Notes under the pieces: model-generated
What the model was told of the DNA's origin: nothing
The model's database searches: none
Seen by the model: the letters and a program-made list of their open reading frames with translations, nothing else
Made by a program: the position numbers and the translations under genes
From: a candidate division TA06 bacterium SM23_40
GTDB lineage: Bacteria > LJUI01 > SM1-40
Assembly: GCA_001303705.1 (NCBI GenBank)
Contig: LJUI01000015.1
Coordinates: forward strand, 1 to 30,138
DNA length: 30,138 nucleotides
Direction: 5' to 3'
Shown: one piece after another, positions 183 through 9,216 of the stretch
How positions within the stretch are numbered: position 1 is the first letter of the stretch
How the letters are laid out: each line of letters starts with the position of its first letter

Positions 183-278
183 GGAAGCGGATAGGGGCTG
201 GTGTCCCTGCTGGACTTCAAATCCAGTTGTCCCGGTCGGTGCCGGGATGGTAGGTTCGATTCCTACACGCTTCCGCCA
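183..278 (+). tRNA. selC: tRNA-Sec, anticodon TCA, CCA encoded
   Basis: This is the selenocysteine tRNA that decodes UGA. The acceptor stem pairs 183-189 with 268-274, followed by discriminator G275 and encoded CCA 276-278. The D stem is six pairs (193-198 with 203-208) around a four-base loop, a tRNA-Sec hallmark. The anticodon stem is 210-214 with 222-226 and the loop 215-221 carries TCA at 217-219. A long variable arm pairs 230-235 with 242-247. The T stem is 250-254 with 262-266. The 96-nt length is much longer than an ordinary tRNA. The eighth acceptor position appears as a G190/A267 mismatch instead of a pair. It lies 148 nt upstream of selD, a functional pairing. Confidence 0.96.
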
Positions 279-426: not shown

Positions 427-1470
427 ATGTCCCGAGTGCGCCTCACTCAGCTCGTCACGTGTGCGGGGTGAGCATCGAAAGTAGGTCTACAAGACCTCGT
501 GCAGGTTCTGCACGACATGCCTACTTCGGACGATCCGCACGTCATCGTCAGTTTCGATATGGTCGATGATGCCGGCGTGTACGAGCTCGACGACGGGACG
601 ATGCTCGTTCAGACCGTCGACTTCTTCACGCCGATCGTCGACGATCCATACACGTTCGGCCGGGTCGCGGCCGTGAACGCGCTGAGCGATGTCTATGCCA
701 TGGGAGGGGTGCCGAAGACCGCACTCAATATCGTCTGTTTCCCGGTGAAGACACTCGATCTGGCGATCCTCGGCGCGATCCTGAGGGGTGGAGCTGAGGT
801 GCTGGCCAGGGCCGGGGTGGCCCTGCTCGGGGGACATACCATTGAGGATGCCGAACCCAAGTACGGGCTCTCCGTTACCGGGATAGTAGAAGCGGAGGAG
901 ATGGTGACGAGCGCCGGGGTAAGGCCCGGCGACAAGCTCGTCCTTACCAAGCCGCTCGGCTCCGGCGTCATCACCACCGCGATGAGAACAGACCAGGCTC
1001 CTGAAGGAGCGGGCGAGAGGGTGATAGCCATGATGCTCGAGCTCAACCGGTCTGCCTCAGAGGCGATGTGTGCAGTCGGCGTCGATGCATGCACTGATAT
1101 CACTGGATTCGGACTGCTGGGGCATGCTCACGAGATGGCCCTTGTGAGCGGCGTGGGTCTCCGATTCTTCATGAACGCCATACCGCTCATCTCAGGCGCG
1201 AGGGAGTGTGCGGAACAGGGTTCTGTGCCCGGAGGGTCGGAGGCGAACAGGCTCTACGTAATGCCCTATCTGAAAATAGGAGAGGGGATATCCGAGATCG
1301 ATGTCGTGCTCCTCGCCGATGCCCAGACGTCAGGTGGCCTTCTCATCGCGGTCCCGCCGGAGCGGGAACAGGACCTGCTGGACGAGTTGCGGGCGCGAGA
1401 TGTCCATGCGGCAGTGACAATAGGAGAGGTGGTCGAGGGGAGGGTGGGGGAGATGGAGCTCGTCGCCTGA
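427..1470 (+). CDS. selD: Selenide, water dikinase, itself a selenoprotein (Sec15)
   Basis: SelD makes selenophosphate from selenide and ATP, the selenium donor for Sec-tRNA synthesis. An open frame without readthrough would start only at GTG 499, lacking the N-terminal catalytic motif. Reading the in-frame TGA at 469-471 as Sec extends it to ATG 427, which has GGAGG at 417-421. The product is then 347 residues, the length of E. coli SelD. The N-terminus reads TCAGUASK, placing Sec15 and Lys18 where E. coli has catalytic Cys17 and Lys20. Other family motifs are VDFFTPIVDDP, GGHTIEDAEP, DITGFGLLGH and DAQTSGGLL. Neighbours are tRNA-Sec upstream and a second Sec gene downstream. Candidate SECIS hairpins follow the UGA. 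Automatic callers would probably truncate it at 499 or call it broken. Identification is very secure; Sec decoding is inferred. Confidence 0.96.
481..515 (+). promoter_or_regulatory. Candidate bacterial SECIS hairpins in selD
   Basis: Two hairpin options lie just after the UGA at 469-471. The first, 481-490, has a four-pair stem GTAG/CTAC whose apex GTAGGTCTAC closely resembles the E. coli fdhF SECIS apex, including GGTC; its first loop-region G is 12 nt past the UGA. A competing fold pairs 483-488 with 492-497. The second option, 497-504 with 508-515, is an eight-pair perfect stem with apex GCAGGTTCTGC, also fdhF-like, with its loop about 33 nt past the UGA. SelB binds such a loop to deliver Sec-tRNA. 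Which fold is used cannot be decided by eye. Confidence 0.6.
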
Positions 1471-1490
1471 TGGAGTGAGCAGATCGAGTC

Positions 1491-1515
1491 GCGCCGGGAC
1501 TTCGCGGCGCCCGGC
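1491..1515 (+). terminator. GC-rich hairpin after selD
   Basis: About 20 nt after the selD stop, GCGCCG (1491-1496) can pair with CGGCGC (1505-1510), or GCCGGG (1493-1498) with CCCGGC (1510-1515). No T tract follows. It may attenuate transcription ahead of the separate promoter at 1609. Confidence 0.3.
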
Positions 1516-1608
1516 ATATGGGCTGGGCACATGGGCTGGACAACGGGGAAACACAGGTCCTGGGGGCAGTGGCGGCGGGGGTCCGGCCTGCGGGAGCGGC
1601 GAAAACCA

Positions 1609-1638
1609 TTGACATCGCGGGTCGATTTCGGATATAGT
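1609..1638 (+). promoter_or_regulatory. Sigma70-type promoter for the selenoprotein gene
   Basis: A consensus -35 TTGACA at 1609-1614 and a -10 TATAGT at 1633-1638 are separated by 18 bp, about 128 bp upstream of ATG 1766. The rest of the 295-bp gap after selD shows no other supported element besides the hairpin at 1491. This suggests the selenoprotein has its own transcript. Confidence 0.65.
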
Positions 1639-1765
1639 ACTAGTCTATCCATCAGGAGCGGCCGAACCGACGCTGTGGGGAGCGGAGGCCGCTTTTGGCT
1701 GATGGGCTGCCGATTTGCGGAGCCGAACGGCGACAGAACCGATCCTGAAGGAAGTGGGCGCATCG

Positions 1766-3964
1766 ATGGACCGAGGTTGGCTGAAGATATCACGTTGGAG
1801 CTTTGCTGCAGCGAGCGGTGCCCGAGGCCCGCTGGTCGCCGGCCTTGTTGCGCTGGCCGTCTGTACAGTCGGGGCGTCGGACGCGGCTGCAGCCGACCGA
1901 GTCGTTCTGGCCGAGCTCTTCACCAACTATGCGTGAACGGGTTGCACTACCGCCAACAGGGTGTTGGACGACGTCATTGTTTCACTCGACTCGGTCTTCG
2001 CGGTCGTCAGGTACCACACCTGGTGGCCGAGCGCGAATGATCCGTTCTATCTGGCCAACATCGAGGAAAACACGGTCAGGACGCGCTATTATCAGCCAGA
2101 TACTGCGCATTACGTGCCTCGTCTGTTCATCGACGGCCTGATCGATGGGGAGTTCAGCGGGCCGTGGGAGGAGCTGATCGCGGCGCGTGATACTGTTGGG
2201 AGCCCGCTCGAGCTGGTAGGAGAGGTCATGCCGAGCGGCGGCATCGATGTCGATGTCGTGCTCGTCGGGACGGAAGAACCGCTCGACCTGGAGGGGCCTC
2301 TTCGCATACGGTATGTCCTTACGGAGTCCGATGTCTATGTCGCCTCGCCGACAGGACCGCACTGGTATGACCAGGCGATGCGCGACATGGTGCCTGACGC
2401 GGAAGGTGTTGAACTCGAGATCGGGCTCGGGGATACGATCTACGAGAGCCGGACCTTTCCGGTAGACGAGGAGTGGGATATCGAGAACCTCGAGGTCGTT
2501 GTCTTCGTCCAGAGGGATGATTCTACAAAGGAGGTGCTCCAGGCCGGGAAGTGGCCCGTGCCGGCGGATGTTCCCAACCTGAGTATCGTGGATGTGGCTC
2601 TTCTCGATCCGATGGGCGACGGCGACGGGAGGGCGGAAGAGGGCGAGGAAGTTGAGCTCATACTGAGCCTTATTAACAGTGAGCCCTGGCTCGATGCGAC
2701 GGCCGTCACTGCCACACTTCGGGAGGCCGATGCGTCGCTCACGCTCGTCGATTCCACGGCTGACTTCGGGGCTGTCGCGGCAGGGGATACGGTCGACAAC
2801 GCGGGGTCCCCGATCACCCTCTCGGTCGCAGACTACCTCGTTCCTCACCGGGCCGTGTTTACGCTCCGAATAGAGGCTGAACCGGGGGGGTATGCGGCGG
2901 ATGACACATTCTCTCTCGTCATAGGTCATCCGCAGATCCTGGTCGTTGATGATGACGATGGGGCGACGTGCGAGACGTCATACTCCGACATTATGGCCGA
3001 GAGCCTCGATCTCTTCTTCGAGCAGTGGGAAGTCGCCGAGCAGGGGAGTCCGATGGAGTGGCTTCTCAACTCCGAGCTCGTCGTCTGGTTCACGGGCGAT
3101 GACTCGACCCAGACGCTCACTGCAGATGATCGCGAGCACCTCGGTGCCTTTCTCGACGGAGGGGGGAAGCTGTTCCTCGCCGGCCAGAACATCGGCCAGG
3201 ATATCGGGGATGAGCCGTTCTATCATGACTAGGATATCGGGGATGAGCCGTTCTATCATGACTACATCCATGCCACGTTCGTCGATTCGGCGACGAGTGA
3301 TATCGCCATCTTCGGCGTGGCGGGCGATCCGGTCTGGGGGGGTGGGATCATCATCAATCAGGCCCAGCAGTCGATGGACGTGGTGAGCGCTACCGAAGAC
3401 GCCGATTCGGTCCTCGTCTACCAGAATGGGGGCGTAGCCGGTATCACCTATGAGGGGGAGTACAGAGTCATCTACTTCGCGTTCGGCGTTGAGGGTGCGG
3501 ACGAATCGTCTCCTCTCGTCCTGCACCGGCACCAGGTGCTGTCGAAGGCCCTGGGCTGGCTCGGCCTTCCCGTGGAGGTGTCAGGAGGAGAGCCTGTTGG
3601 GCCGGAATCGGCGCTGCCGCTCTGCCTTGTCCATCAGAACTACCCGAATCCCTTCGCCGAGATGACATCGCTCAGCTATGTCCTCGGCGGAGGAGAGGGC
3701 TATCTGTCGGCCCGAGGCGTGTGGGACGGCTCCGGCGGGGGGCGCGATGCCTCATATCGGGACGCTCATGTGAAGCTTGCGATCTATAACATACAGGGGC
3801 AGCGTGTGCGACTCCTCGTCGATGAGCCGCAGGAGGATGGCCGGTATGCCGTGGGCTGGGACGGCAGGGATGAGCGGGGAGAGACGGTCTCTTCCGGTGT
3901 TTATTTCATGAGGCTCGATGCGCGCGGGGAGAGATCAGTCCGGAAGATGGTTCGGCTCAAGTGA
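1766..3964 (+). CDS. Secreted thioredoxin-fold selenoprotein (U-x-x-C), interrupted by an amber codon
   Basis: One frame runs from ATG 1766 to TGA 3964 across TGA 1934-1936 and TAG 3230-3232. Residues 1-43 resemble a signal peptide. The next segment, ELFTNYAUTGC, places Sec57 and Cys60 in a U-x-x-C arrangement, the selenium form of the thioredoxin CxxC. A later YVPRLFIDG stretch fits the cis-proline region of the fold. Residues about 270-385 form an acidic GDGDGRAEEGE-type beta domain. Residues about 388-600 look like a glutamine-amidotransferase-like alpha/beta domain starting LVVDDD. The end has YPNPF and a FlgD/T9SS-like Ig domain. It is likely an exported redox protein; the substrate is unknown. 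The amber codon comes from a 33-bp duplication, so the gene is a recent pseudogene, a variant or an assembly error. Sec reading is supported by the nearby tRNA-Sec and selD. Confidence 0.85.
1953..1967 (+). promoter_or_regulatory. Candidate SECIS hairpin after UGA 1934
   Basis: CCAAC at 1953-1957 pairs perfectly with GTTGG at 1963-1967 around loop AGGGT, with G as the second loop base. The first loop G lies 23 nt after the UGA. Stem size, loop and spacing fit the usual bacterial SECIS description. It sits inside the coding frame, as bacterial SECIS elements do. Confidence 0.55.
3199..3264 (+). repeat. Exact 33-bp tandem duplication creating TAG
   Basis: The 33-bp unit at 3199-3231 is repeated without any mismatch at 3232-3264. 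The length is a multiple of three, so the frame is kept, but the junction turns the GAC-TAC of the ancestral reading into GAC-TAG. Removing one copy restores an uninterrupted frame through the amidotransferase-like domain. Zero divergence points to a very recent slippage event or an assembly artefact. Confidence 0.97.
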
Positions 3965-3991
3965 CGCAGGGGAGCCGGCGGACGATATAAT
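3961..3991 (+). promoter_or_regulatory. Possible promoter upstream of the M28 peptidase
   Basis: A perfect -10 TATAAT at 3986-3991 lies in otherwise GC-rich DNA just after the stop codon. The best -35 match is weak (TGACGC at 3962-3967, 18-bp spacing). It could drive the peptidase gene 160 bp downstream. Confidence 0.4.
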
Positions 3992-4150
3992 CGACATTCA
4001 TGTTGGAGTTGGACGAATTGGTGTTCCTCCGGGAGCAGAACGAAAGCAAAGGGAATCGTCTACCTGCCGACGTGGCGCGGCGGATAGGACTCAGCGGTCC
4101 GGGAGTTGTGTTGGTTGTCTGAGGTGGTTTACAGGAAAGGGAGAGAGGCT

Positions 4151-6880
4151 ATGCGACGGTCATGGGTGAGCGCAGTATTCGAAACGGTGCATGCTCACAC
4201 CAAGGTGAAGGCGCGGCATGTCAGAGCGTTGCCGGTGGTGCTGGTCGCATCAGTGACGGCGATCGCCATCCTCGGTGCTGCGACCGTTTCGGCAGGTACG
4301 GGGATGCTCGCTTCGATCGAAGTTGGGGAAGACGGAATCGGCTCCCTCGGCTGGCTGGCCGACGAGCCGGTGGAGATCTACTACTGGACCCTGGAATATC
4401 TTCTTGTCGGCGCCGATGAAGGTACGGCGGAGAGGATCCGGGAGCGCGGGAACGAGGTCGAGGTTCTCGACCTCGTTCCGTGGAGTGAGCCGTACTATGT
4501 CATCTCGCGCCCGCAGGGTGAGCCACTCGGGGTGCTGCCTGCGGTGGGACTGGTGCTGTACCGCACGGAGCGCGAGGCAGTGGTGAAGGTGCAAGACGGA
4601 CTCGTCGAGGAATTCGGGGAGGCCGGATTCATGTTCGCCCGGATCTTCCAGCAGCCGCTGCCGTGGCCGCCGCGCCACGTTGAGCGGCTCGGCAGGATCG
4701 AGCAGTTCGGGCCCCTGGAGAGCGACACGCTGATAGCGCGTCTGGTCGGGGAGATCTCTGCCGATACCATCGAGGCGTATATCCAGCGGATGCAGGACTA
4801 CCAGACGAGGTACACCCCTACCGACTCGTGCTGGGCCTCGGCTCAGTGGATTCAGGATAAATTCCTCAGCTACGGGTATGTCGATGTCGAACTCGACTCG
4901 TTCTGGGTGAACTACAATCCGTGGTCGAGCTGGGCCGTCGATGTCGTGGCCGTCAAGTCCGGCACCCTCTACCCGACCAAGTACATCGTCATTGGAGGTC
5001 ACTACGACTCGGTCACCTATGGGTGGGAACCTGGTCCGTGGGAGTTTGCGCCCGGGGCCGACGACAACGCGACTGGTGCAGCCTCGACCATGGAGATCGC
5101 CAGGGCACTCGCCGATGAGGATATCGGCACCTCTGTCGTCTTCATCGCCTTCAGTGCCGAGGAGCAGGGCCTGTTCGGGAGCTGGCACTACGCCTCCTGG
5201 GCAGCGGGTATGGGCATGGACATCGTTCTGATGCTCAATATGGACATGACCGGTCGCTATGTGAGCGGGCCCAGATATGTCGACATGGGCGTCGGCCCGA
5301 CAGCCGAGGTCTTCGGAGAGCTCTGCGAGGCGATGGCCCTCGAGTACACGGACGCCATCCCTCTGGCAGGACCAGCCGGCGCGAACAGCGACCACTGGCC
5401 GTTCATTGCGAACGGCTTCGATGCGCTCATGCTCATCGAGAACGACTTCAACTACTTCGGCTGGCACTCGAACCATGACTCGCTCCACTATCTCGATATG
5501 ACGTATTGCCAGGACGTCGCGCAGACAGTTGTTGCCACGGCAGTAGCGCTCGGTGACGGGCGGGTCGGACTGGTCTCGGCATCTGATCACATGATCGACG
5601 AGGCAGTCGGCGACGGCGACGGGCGCGCCGAGCCGGGTGAGACGATCAATTTCATCGTCATCCTCGACAACGACGCGACGTGGACAGGGGCCACGAATGT
5701 CTCGGCCGTGCTGCGAACCGACGACCCGACGATCACGATCACTGACTCGATTGCCACATTCCCCGACATCCCGATCGGGGGTTCGGTCGATAACTCGCTC
5801 GATCCGTTTGTAGTGGAGATCGGTGCGAGCGATCCGCATATGGCCGAGTTCACGGTCGAGATCACGTCGACGCCTCCGAGCTTCGTGAGCGAACATACGC
5901 TAGAGGTCATCATCGGCCACCCCGCCATCATGGTCGTCGACGACGACGAGGGCGACGAGTACGAACATCGGTACCAGGCGGTACTCGGCGACTCGTTTGG
6001 GCTGTTTGTGGAGATCTGGGAGGTCGCGACCCAGGGATGCCCGGAGGATTGGCTCCTGAATGCTGAAGTCGTCATCTGGTACACGGGCGATGCGACCGAG
6101 AACACACTCACACCGGACGACATCACTGCGTTGAGCAACTTCCTCGATGGCGGAGGTAAGCTCTTCATCACGGGAGAGAACGTGGCTGAGGATCTGGATG
6201 GGTCCAACTTCCTCTCGGACTATCTGCACACCGCGCTCATCGATCCGAACTCGCCCGATTACTACATGGAGGGCGTGCCGGGTGACACGATCGGAGACGG
6301 TCTGCTCGTCATCGACGATACGCAGACGTCGATGGACATCATCTCTCCGGTCGGTGCGGATAGCGTACTCACCTATTCTTCGGGCGGCGCCGCGGCCGTG
6401 AGGTATGAGGGTGCGTACAAGGTCGTCTTCTTCGGATTCGGGTTCGAGTGGATCAATGACCAGGTCCCGACGTCCAGCCATCGCCACGAGGTGATGGCGA
6501 GAGTACTCAACTGGTTCGGCATGCCGGTGGTAGGAGTGAGCGACGGCGATGACGATGCCATCCAGAGGGATGCTGTCTTCTGGCTGGGGCAGAGTTATCC
6601 CAATCCTCTGCGCGGGTCGGCAGCGATCCGCTATGTCGTGCCCGGGGCGTCAGCGGCAGCAGGTGAGACCGCATCCGGGCAGCCGGTTACGCTGAAGGTG
6701 TACAACGTCCTGGGGCAGGTGGTGCGCACTCTTGTCGATCGGACTGAGGCGCCGGGTGACCACGTTGTAACCTGGGATCGGCGCGGTGACTCCGGCCGCG
6801 CGGTTGCACCGGGGATCTACTTCTATCGGCTCGAGGTTGGAGACGAGTCTGCGACACGCAAGGTTGTCGTGCTGAGATAG
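4151..6880 (+). CDS. Secreted M28-family zinc peptidase with sorting-type C-terminus
   Basis: The 909-residue product begins at ATG 4151, preceded by GGGAGAG. A long cationic signal sequence precedes a hydrophobic stretch (about residues 28-46). The M28 aminopeptidase-like domain covers about 245-480 with all expected metal and catalytic residues: His284 in GGHYDS, Asp304 in GADDN, Glu337-Glu338 in SAEEQG, Asp365 in NMDM and His439 in WHSNHDS. A GDGDGRAEPGE-type acidic beta domain starts near 480, an amidotransferase-like alpha/beta domain near 590, and a FlgD/T9SS-like Ig domain ends the protein after SYPNP near 816. The last three modules match those of the upstream selenoprotein, indicating domain shuffling or duplication. 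It probably cleaves peptides outside the cell or at the surface. The in-frame TTG 4106 is a less likely start. Confidence 0.93.
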   Translation: MRRSWVSAVFETVHAHTKVKARHVRALPVVLVASVTAIAILGAATVSAGTGMLASIEVGEDGIGSLGWLADEPVEIYYWTLEYLLVGADEGTAERIRERGNEVEVLDLVPWSEPYYVISRPQGEPLGVLPAVGLVLYRTEREAVVKVQDGLVEEFGEAGFMFARIFQQPLPWPPRHVERLGRIEQFGPLESDTLIARLVGEISADTIEAYIQRMQDYQTRYTPTDSCWASAQWIQDKFLSYGYVDVELDSFWVNYNPWSSWAVDVVAVKSGTLYPTKYIVIGGHYDSVTYGWEPGPWEFAPGADDNATGAASTMEIARALADEDIGTSVVFIAFSAEEQGLFGSWHYASWAAGMGMDIVLMLNMDMTGRYVSGPRYVDMGVGPTAEVFGELCEAMALEYTDAIPLAGPAGANSDHWPFIANGFDALMLIENDFNYFGWHSNHDSLHYLDMTYCQDVAQTVVATAVALGDGRVGLVSASDHMIDEAVGDGDGRAEPGETINFIVILDNDATWTGATNVSAVLRTDDPTITITDSIATFPDIPIGGSVDNSLDPFVVEIGASDPHMAEFTVEITSTPPSFVSEHTLEVIIGHPAIMVVDDDEGDEYEHRYQAVLGDSFGLFVEIWEVATQGCPEDWLLNAEVVIWYTGDATENTLTPDDITALSNFLDGGGKLFITGENVAEDLDGSNFLSDYLHTALIDPNSPDYYMEGVPGDTIGDGLLVIDDTQTSMDIISPVGADSVLTYSSGGAAAVRYEGAYKVVFFGFGFEWINDQVPTSSHRHEVMARVLNWFGMPVVGVSDGDDDAIQRDAVFWLGQSYPNPLRGSAAIRYVVPGASAAAGETASGQPVTLKVYNVLGQVVRTLVDRTEAPGDHVVTWDRRGDSGRAVAPGIYFYRLEVGDESATRKVVVLR

Positions 6881-7124
6881 TATCATATGGCCCTGTGAGG
6901 CAGCAGATCGAGGCTTTTCCGGCAGTCACGTGATGGCCTCCATGAGAAAGGGTCCACTCTTCACAGTGAGCTCACATAGCACGTGCCTTCCGTGGGGTCA
7001 GATGATAGGAACATAGGCAATCAGGGATGTGATGCGCGTCGACACAGGACTTGTTGTGTGAGAATCGTGGCTCCAGGGTGACGCCCCGAATGGACAAACA
7101 TGGGTGGTTCGCAAGGAGGGTTCG

Positions 7125-7763
7125 ATGTTAGCCAGCGGCAAAAGGTTGCAGGTGGACGTTGGGTGGAGGCGTACTATCAGCGGTGCGGCAGTGCTGGGGG
7201 TTCTTCTTACGTTCGCGGCAGGATGGGTCGTAGCAGGCGAGCCCGGCGACGGCGAAGAAGACAACCCGAAGGTGGAGTTGATAGACGCAGCGGATGCATG
7301 TGTCGTCTCTGACTTCACGATGGAGAATGTCGATGGTGAGCGGGTGTCGCTCGATGATCTGCTCGAAGATGGGGTCGTTCTCATCGATTTCTGGGCACTC
7401 TGGTGTCGGCCGTGCCTGAGGGAGCTCGACTACCTCAATGATTTCAATAACAAGCGTGGGAAAGATGGGTTCGCGGTAGTGACTGTCAATATCGACACTC
7501 CTGAGTCGATAAGTCGGGTGAAGAGCTACGTCCAGAGTCGGGGATATGGCTTTGAAGTCCTGCTCGACCCGGAGAAGGAGCTGTACTACGATCTGAATGT
7601 TCCTGCAATCCCGTACTCCGTTCTCATCGATAGGGAGGGGCGGATCCGGTCGGTGCACATAGGGTTTCAGCTGGGCGATGAGAAGATCATGGAGAGAGAG
7701 ATAGCGGCCCTGATTGAGGAGGGGGTGGCCAATGAAACGGGAGAGGAGACGAGTGGCGAGTAG
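7125..7763 (+). CDS. TlpA-like exported thioredoxin
   Basis: This 212-residue protein starts at ATG 7125, five bases after AAGGAGGG; the in-frame GTG 7104 lacks such a site. A hydrophobic segment at about 21-39 ending in AGE is a signal peptide or anchor. The thioredoxin fold begins with VVLIDFWALWCRPC, giving the redox pair Cys94 and Cys97, followed by VVTVNIDTPES and the cis-proline region VPAIPYSVLIDREG, as in TlpA/ResA. It would handle periplasmic disulfide or cytochrome thiols. The 3' end overlaps the next gene by 32 bp, implying translational coupling and a joint role with that envelope protein. The 244-bp gap upstream shows no clear promoter. Confidence 0.93.
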   Translation: MLASGKRLQVDVGWRRTISGAAVLGVLLTFAAGWVVAGEPGDGEEDNPKVELIDAADACVVSDFTMENVDGERVSLDDLLEDGVVLIDFWALWCRPCLRELDYLNDFNNKRGKDGFAVVTVNIDTPESISRVKSYVQSRGYGFEVLLDPEKELYYDLNVPAIPYSVLIDREGRIRSVHIGFQLGDEKIMEREIAALIEEGVANETGEETSGE

Positions 7764-9216
7764 ACGTAGCGTCAAGGAGGCCTGTCCGTTCTGTCGGCGC
7801 ACGATCTCTCTGCTCCTTGTGGCGATCGCCGTCTCAGTGCTCGCACGGCCGGCAGGCGGGGAACCGGCACCTCCGCGCGGGAGCGAGGGGATTTCGCTCA
7901 GGTCGATCCGCGGCAGCAACGAGATGATCTTCTCACGCGATGTCGAGGACACGCTCGATGAACTGGAGAACTGGTTCGACGTGTCGATCGACATGGGTGA
8001 GGTGACCGCAGGGTTTCGCTATCAGATGTATGAGACATCGGCGCGGGGTGCAAACGAGTCTGCGGGATTCAGTCAGCGATTCGCAGAATTCCGTCGCGAT
8101 TGGCTGACGCTCCGGGCGGGAAACTACTACGAGACCTTCGGAAGAGGGCTGGTGCTGCGGGTGTTTGAGGATCGGGAGATCCGGCAAGAGACGTCGCTCG
8201 ATGGGGTCGCGCTCGAGGCCAGACTTGAGGACTTCATGGACCTGAAGATGACCGGCATCACGGGCAGGAGTGGCGACGACTTCGTGCGGGGCGGAGATGT
8301 CGAAGCTACCCTGCTGCCTGGTGTTAAGCTGGGGGCGGCATACGCGATGAGCAATCGGAGCTACACGGATCGCACCGAGATGGGCGGGATCAGGAGCGAC
8401 GTGTCGCATGGCCCATTGGGCGTGTACGCGGAATTCGCCACGCGCGACGGGTTCCACGAGTTCGAAGGTTCCGGGTTCTACCTCTCGACGACTCTGTCAG
8501 TACCCAAGCTGGGGGTGGTGGCGGAATACAAGGACTATGACGACTTCGAATTCGCATATCACAATCCTCCTGCTGCGCTGAGAGACCATAGTGTCAACCT
8601 CCTGGCGCGTCATCCGAGGGTCGTCCAGCCGGACGACGAGCAGGGATTCCAGGTGGAGGCGACCTACTCGCCGTCATTCTCGACGACTATTATCGGGAGC
8701 GACAGCTATACGGCACAGCATTCGGGTGATGCTCCGTTCCACGAACAGTACCTGGAGATCCGTCAGGATATCGGAGACCGTCTGTTCACGATCCTTGCGG
8801 GGGCCAGGAGTCGAGAGATCCCTTCCGGCCGCGATGAGGCCAACGCGGTCTATCGCTATACGGGAGCAGGCGAACTGGACTTCAGGATCACGGATGAGAG
8901 GAGTATATCGCTCATATACGAACATCAGCTGACGGAATCTGCCTACGGGGATGTGACTGATCAGTACGGCGTGGTAGGGTTCAGCTGTTGCAGCATCCTC
9001 ATGTTCAGTCTGCAGGCAGAGAGGACCTCGGAAAAGGACCCCGTCACCGATAAGGACTTCTGGCTGATGGGGTCGCTCGGGCTCAAGTTCGCACGACGAC
9101 ATGACGTCTCTCTGAGCGTGGGCACGAGACGGAGCCGGTTCATCTGCTCCTCCGGTATGTGCCGGTTCGAGCCAAAGCTCGAGGGGGCGGAGCTGCGCAT
9201 CGTCTCGACGTTCTAG
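7732..9216 (+). CDS. Putative outer-membrane beta-barrel protein (DUF6029-like)
   Basis: The 494-residue product starts at ATG 7732, behind GGAGGGGG inside the tlpA-like gene. The N-terminus is a basic signal peptide with a hydrophobic core near 26-42. The mature protein is rich in alternating-residue, aromatic beta strands (FRYQMYETS, LTLRAGNYYETFGRGL, LGVVAEYKDYDDFEF) and ends with a terminal Phe, typical of a barrel inserted in the outer membrane. The 'NYYETFGRGL' region resembles DUF6029 proteins, often found beside TlpA-like thioredoxins; this is from memory and not searched. Four cysteines sit in the C-terminal part (a CC pair and C-SSGM-C), possible partners of the thioredoxin. A GC-rich hairpin follows the stop. 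Confidence 0.75.
   Translation: MKRERRRVASRRSVKEACPFCRRTISLLLVAIAVSVLARPAGGEPAPPRGSEGISLRSIRGSNEMIFSRDVEDTLDELENWFDVSIDMGEVTAGFRYQMYETSARGANESAGFSQRFAEFRRDWLTLRAGNYYETFGRGLVLRVFEDREIRQETSLDGVALEARLEDFMDLKMTGITGRSGDDFVRGGDVEATLLPGVKLGAAYAMSNRSYTDRTEMGGIRSDVSHGPLGVYAEFATRDGFHEFEGSGFYLSTTLSVPKLGVVAEYKDYDDFEFAYHNPPAALRDHSVNLLARHPRVVQPDDEQGFQVEATYSPSFSTTIIGSDSYTAQHSGDAPFHEQYLEIRQDIGDRLFTILAGARSREIPSGRDEANAVYRYTGAGELDFRITDERSISLIYEHQLTESAYGDVTDQYGVVGFSCCSILMFSLQAERTSEKDPVTDKDFWLMGSLGLKFARRHDVSLSVGTRRSRFICSSGMCRFEPKLEGAELRIVSTF

Follow-up and report, generated by a model that had tools for sequence, protein, structure and literature searches.

The window analysed here is the stretch of 30,138 nucleotides read on the forward strand of contig LJUI01000015.1 (assembly GCA_001303705.1) from the candidate division TA06 bacterium SM23_40. 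Near its beginning, a gene for tRNA-Sec, the selD gene and a third gene follow each other on the same strand. The third gene starts with a signal-peptide-like N terminus and carries an in-frame TGA as codon 57, within the motif ELFTNYA-U-TGC. The initial annotation, made from the letters of this DNA, had proposed this order and this reading of the gene start; the first was borne out by ARAGORN, Rfam and TIGRFAM models and the second by inspection of the sequence (Table 1). An additional observation, absent from the initial annotation, is that selD encodes a selenoprotein as well.

Table 1. Features of the tRNA-Sec/selD/selenoprotein locus (window coordinates).
Feature	Position	Strand	Basis
tRNA-Sec (selC), anticodon TCA	183-278	+	ARAGORN; Rfam RF01852, 77.7 bits
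selD, encoding selenophosphate synthetase, a Sec protein in its own right (CAG-U)	427-1470	+	TIGR00476, 380.7 bits with TGA read through
selD in-frame TGA (Sec codon), stable hairpin behind it	469-471	+	Fold of -19.6 kcal/mol over 60 nt
AAGGAAG, putative ribosome-binding-like site 5' of the ATG	1748-1754	+	Sequence, inferred
Selenoprotein coding sequence from ATG to TAG in the assembly, 488 residues, Sec as residue 57	1766-3232	+	
Signal-peptide-like N terminus, residues 1-40	1766-1885	+	Sequence; directly before the domain in most Sec homologues
Thioredoxin fold of the Omp28/HBP35-type domain	1886-2200	+	AlphaFold2 model; match to HBP35 (5y1a)
TGA, probable Sec codon for the first redox residue in U-x-x-C	1934-1936	+	Homologue column
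bSECIS-like hairpin, loop GGG	1951-1970	+	-6.7 kcal/mol; synonymous re-coding control
Beta sandwich of the Omp28/HBP35-type domain (Pfam Omp28 region)	2201-2575	+	PF11551, 31.6 bits; 2r2c, Z 9.6
Beta domain in common with the adjoining M28 peptidase gene	2600-2910	+	
Alpha/beta (DUF4350 / class I amidotransferase-like) domain, with the TAG inside	2912-3575	+	Weak basis
Perfect 33-nt tandem duplication (3198-3230 / 3231-3263)	3198-3263	+	Two paralogues without it
In-frame TAG created by the 33-nt duplication	3230-3232	+	
FlgD_ig / T9SS type A sorting-domain tail, 3' of the TAG; stop TGA 3962-3964	3600-3964	+	PF13860, 35.1 bits (cut-off 27); TIGR04183, 25.5 bits (cut-off 23)

Homologues of the protein were searched with TGA read as Cys, a setting that leaves TGA in the column of interest unpenalised and does not forbid it elsewhere. 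The pattern scan was run on the tighter alignment A2, alignment A1 being too diverse. Among 105 distinct domains from 29 genomes, the column of residue 57 contains TGA in 56 cases, Cys in 48 and Asn in one; the Cys or Sec that the initial annotation expected in relatives at this position is therefore found at 104 of the 105 sites. The second redox residue, the Cys at +3 of U-x-x-C, is present in 56/56 TGA homologues, coding sequence is conserved on both sides of the window TGA, and the 21,648 read-through codons of the homologous domains do not contain a single TGA beyond the Sec column. In a tree calculated with this column masked, changes between Sec and Cys amount to at least five on well-supported branches and to 19 by parsimony. 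As the selenium/sulfur swap recurs in more than 100 related genes of uncultured bacteria, the Sec reading is almost certainly real, and we consider it very highly probable that TGA 1934-1936 itself encodes Sec.

The distribution of the Sec form across genomes agrees with that of the Sec machinery, defined as SelB or SelA over the cut-off, mostly accompanied by tRNA-Sec. The Sec form occurs in 21 of the 22 genomes possessing this machinery and in none of the remaining seven, where SelA, SelB and tRNA-Sec all score below cut-off and only Cys forms are encountered (Fisher p 5e-6); in this comparison set, the window genome and genome G058 are each the sole representative of their phylum. Both selA and selB, which the initial annotation had recommended looking for, were found in the source genome (SelA 558 bits, SelB 392 bits), in addition to tRNA-Sec and selD. 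The same genome carries three Sec paralogues of the selenoprotein gene (contigs C38, C124 and C19) and Cys paralogues on contigs C121 and C5. A Cys-form Omp28 paralogue is located directly upstream of selA and selB (L160, contig 5 of G000, 4238-8706, minus strand), and the Omp28-type family thus adjoins the Sec machinery at each of the two places where the source genome encodes it. A particular case is the Phycisphaerales bin470 genome (G077, CP070718.1; loci L086, L152, L154 and L155), which encodes four Sec forms and SelA; neither SelB nor tRNA-Sec was found over the cut-off in its chromosome-scale assembly, the best two tRNA candidates being tRNA-Ser, a result that matches either divergent machinery or a gap.

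Two other ways of reading the TGA can be set against these data. A genome-wide reassignment of the codon (to Trp, for instance, as in code 4) or random readthrough, for which no support was found, was dismissed as having a negligible probability since TGA is confined to Cys columns in the homologue table, selD and the selenoprotein gene both terminate at a normal TGA and the genome possesses a complete Sec machinery. Reading TGA 1934-1936 as an ordinary stop would leave a 56-codon gene or pseudogene and an independent gene beginning at GTG 1961, and an open reading frame spanning 1961-3232 can indeed be delineated mechanically. This reading was also dismissed on the homologue table and is extremely improbable: the TGA falls exactly at the Cys column in homologues from 21 genomes and nowhere else, the signal peptide is encoded upstream of it, and a stop at this place would break up the thioredoxin strand and redox motif.

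Decoding of a TGA as Sec in bacteria calls attention to the SECIS-like loop noticed earlier behind the codon, which was recovered as the hairpin CGCCAACA-GGG-UGUUGGACG at 1951-1970 (6 bp + 2), a distance of 22 nt separating its loop from the TGA. Minimum-energy folding of the window SECIS region performed no better than shuffles (z +1.3, single sequence); as this folding was uninformative, a rule-based hairpin search was adopted, with synonymous re-codings and Cys sites as controls. Taken alone, the window hairpin reaches -6.7 kcal/mol, an energy matched by 1.3% of 150 synonymous re-codings (p 0.013). It slightly misses the published bSECIS limit of -7.5 kcal/mol (PMC13188914), which is passed by 57% of the Sec sites and 6% of the Cys sites. 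The mean hairpin energy at Sec sites is -7.6 kcal/mol versus -2.8 in their synonymous re-codings, and the corresponding values at Cys sites are -1.4 and -1.8 kcal/mol. SECIS-type hairpins are accordingly found behind TGA sites and not behind Cys sites (Mann-Whitney p 7e-13, a value that overstates independence since the homologues are related, the re-coding contrast being valid within each sequence).

The domain following the signal peptide was modelled by AlphaFold2 with a pLDDT of 93.2 and a pTM of 0.91 and consists of a thioredoxin fold succeeded by a beta sandwich, Sec being residue 17 of the model, directly before the first helix (18-33). The closest solved structure is that of HBP35 from Porphyromonas gingivalis (PDB 5y1a; Z 24.5, 221 residues, 2.6 A). 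Atu2684, of the DUF1223 family (PDB 2axo), is matched with a Z of 20.4 and, in the profile alignment, the Sec column coincides with the first Cys of its CASC motif. The beta sandwich part matches P. gingivalis Omp28 (PDB 2r2c, Z 9.6). With the Pfam models, the window protein obtains 31.6 for Omp28 (PF11551, gathering score 34.9), the best match lying behind the redox motif, and 15.6 for DUF1223 (PF06764, gathering score 30.7); the former threshold is exceeded by 7 of the 10 relatives scanned and the latter by some paralogues. The earlier proposal, an exported protein with a thioredoxin fold whose first redox residue is Sec, is strongly supported, and the two checks named as able to refute it, on the homologue column and on the presence of selA and selB, both turned out favourable.

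An exported thiol redox protein is likely, and the best explanation of the gene, in which we place considerable confidence, would be an exported selenoprotein of Omp28/HBP35 fold whose most probable activity, outside the cytoplasm, is that of a thiol-disulfide oxidoreductase. SelB, guided by the SECIS hairpin just behind the UGA, would insert Sec at residue 57, and the signal peptide would lead the product through the inner membrane. The active site of the thioredoxin fold would consist of U57-x-x-C60, a thiol-disulfide (selenenylsulfide) redox pair in which the selenol would attack a disulfide or another oxidised substrate, to be released by the resolving Cys60. For HBP35, thioredoxin activity has been measured and disappears on mutation of the two active-site Cys (PMC2907840). 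HBP35 also binds hemin (PMC2907840), so that a role other than disulfide reduction can be envisaged, in which the Sec domain would mainly bind haem or a metal, or would sense or detoxify oxidants or metals at the surface. Besides the rank of HBP35 as best structural match, a weak hint in this direction comes from the inspected translations around the C38 paralogue, which include haem-export-like and CopA-like copper-ATPase products. We regard such a role as rather unlikely, given that both redox residues (U/C-x-x-C) are kept in nearly all members and that Sec at the matching place of thioredoxin folds is usually catalytic (PMC13188914). In its broader neighbourhood (L161, contig 38 of G000, about 1100-9089), the C38 paralogue is placed between cytochrome c maturation (ccm)-like and DUF302-like genes and the gene for the CopA-like copper P-type ATPase.

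Whether the exported oxidoreductase outlined above is a new selenoprotein, as had been suggested initially, requires a nuanced answer. A Sec form of the fold is already known as the NCBIfam family NF045500, 'Omp28-related selenoprotein', which equals the hypothetical protein GOS_C that Zhang and Gladyshev reported in 2008 from ocean metagenomes; it has UxxC in a Trx-like fold and was represented by 74 sequences with Sec and 312 with Cys (PMC2398784; PMC13188914 Table 1). The claim of novelty holds to the extent that the window protein scores 22 bits with this model, far below its cut-off of 200, and that none of the homologues from 21 genomes exceeds the cut-off, the best reaching 97. Judged by these scores, the window protein is a divergent sister of the NF045500 family and not a member. 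Both share an Omp28-related domain with a Trx-like fold, a single Sec in UxxC and Cys homologues; they differ in that the proteins described here belong to other lineages, occur as several Sec paralogues per genome and in tandem arrays, and have tails of T9SS/FlgD type as well as middle modules specific to each lineage. HBP35 resembles the window protein in its 221-residue fold, its T9SS-type C-terminal domain and a profile match over the redox-motif region; unlike the window protein, to which it is about 12% identical, it has Cys in place of Sec and lacks the beta and alpha/beta middle module. The fold is likewise the same in Atu2684, whose ELFT-x-x-GC-x-x-C active site is aligned column for column, but this protein has Cys and its solved chain lacks a sorting tail, and the window protein remains below the DUF1223 cut-off. 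The likeness to Pfam Omp28 (2r2c) concerns the beta-sandwich half, the window protein staying under the gathering score of that family. A literature search for Omp28 or DUF1223 with selenoprotein found none, and the known relative came to light via NCBIfam.

What appears to be new is the breadth of lineages, the multiplicity of Sec paralogues within a genome, in part as tandem arrays, and the T9SS-type tails. The Sec family extends over Zixiibacteriota, Gemmatimonadota-labelled genomes, Neomarinimicrobiota, Phycisphaerales metagenome-assembled genomes and the single-genome phylum of the window itself. In Zixiibacteriota genomes, two to four Sec paralogues were observed in tandem, each with a signal peptide and a tail of its own (L068, 3774-8475; L071; L076; L092). 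A viral source was considered and is unsupported, the viral scan having yielded no relative; plasmid tblastn gave no match. Because annotation with TGA as a stop would cut these proteins at their active site, a widespread exported redox family of uncultured bacteria is easily missed. The matched Sec and Cys paralogues found in one genome offer a natural test of the benefit of selenium in one fold.

Behind the Sec domain, the window gene encodes a beta domain, an alpha/beta domain and a FlgD_ig/T9SS-type tail. The module order read initially (thioredoxin fold, acidic beta domain, amidotransferase-like domain, FlgD-like tail) is supported for the thioredoxin fold with its beta sandwich and for the tail, and weakly for the amidotransferase-like domain. 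The latter label corresponds to a weak DUF4350 match of the adjoining paralogous cassette (E 0.013) and to an alpha/beta fold in a model of pLDDT 80. The Foldseek matches of the cassette model were mostly glycoside hydrolases and glycosyltransferases and had low TM-scores, so that the domain was left as alpha/beta, DUF4350-like. The modules from the beta domain to the tail make up a cassette that also occurs in the adjoining M28 peptidase gene and in many other proteins of the source genome. In the M28 peptidase (window 4106-6880), the C-terminal cassette is 44% identical to that of the selenoprotein over residues 275-486. Many other Sec homologues are shorter and are made of a signal peptide, the Sec domain and a tail. 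Models for a UshA-like (seleno)protein, a multihaem cytochrome, thrombospondin repeats and dockerin were each matched by single Sec proteins of alignment A5 (47 proteins), a pattern pointing to the shuffling of other domains around the one with Sec.

The T9SS type A sorting domain (TIGR04183) is matched at E 0.001 by 33 of the 47 complete Sec proteins, and the source genome encodes a translocon and a sortase of this system, with SprA (504.6 bits, with its neighbours) and PorU (631.5 bits) over cut-off. HBP35 itself uses the type IX (Por) secretion system to reach the surface of the cell (PMC3120885). In most relatives, the C-terminal sorting domain would direct the protein to type IX secretion and hence to the cell surface; for the family as a whole we give such delivery about even chances or better, and for the window copy it is uncertain. 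A fuller picture, which we hold to be as probable as its contrary, would be that of multi-copy Sec thioredoxins displayed by type IX secretion on the surface of uncultured FCB-group phyla, carrying out redox reactions outside the outer membrane, with tandem paralogues each endowed with U-x-x-C. If most members are indeed T9SS cargo, Sec is placed at the cell surface, which raises the questions of selenol upkeep, of re-reduction outside the cytoplasm and of the target. A search of a full-text library found no relevant paper linking selenoproteins with type IX secretion.

The uncertainty regarding the window copy stems from an interruption of its frame. The unbroken run of more than 600 codons stated in the initial annotation proved incorrect: starting from ATG 1766, the frame is open for 488 codons and breaks at a TAG 431 codons past the TGA, and 243 more codons then lead to the terminal TGA. 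The TAG stands at the junction of the two perfect 33-nt copies of the tandem duplication. In the M28 peptidase gene of the window and in the C38 paralogue, the corresponding place has no repeat and stays open, which indicates that the repeat was added to the window copy, either in reality or by the assembly. Since the TAG precedes the tail, whose TIGR04183 score is above the cut-off but which is encoded 3' of it, the sorting signal would be lost in the window copy as assembled. The most serious competing view therefore accepts the family as real and holds that the window copy is decaying or mis-assembled, so that the TAG truncates it and no full-length surface selenoprotein is made from it; we rate this view slightly below even. 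The perfect duplication with its in-frame TAG, the two paralogues devoid of it and the position of the tail all speak in its favour. Against it, the window copy shows neither a frameshift nor a further stop in 732 codons, and the Omp28 domain with its Sec site is intact upstream of the TAG. Past the TAG, the frame moreover picks up again without a shift and runs to an ordinary stop, and any damage must consequently be recent or confined to the assembly. Present data fit an assembly error, decay or a switchable copy alike; the window copy may lack surface delivery or be mis-assembled, and a damaged or mis-assembled copy is quite possible and compatible with the rest of the interpretation as an exported Sec oxidoreductase. 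Further downstream in the window, at 7104-7763, a gene encodes an AhpC-TSA/TlpA-type thioredoxin-like protein with a WCRPC motif, a possible redox partner.
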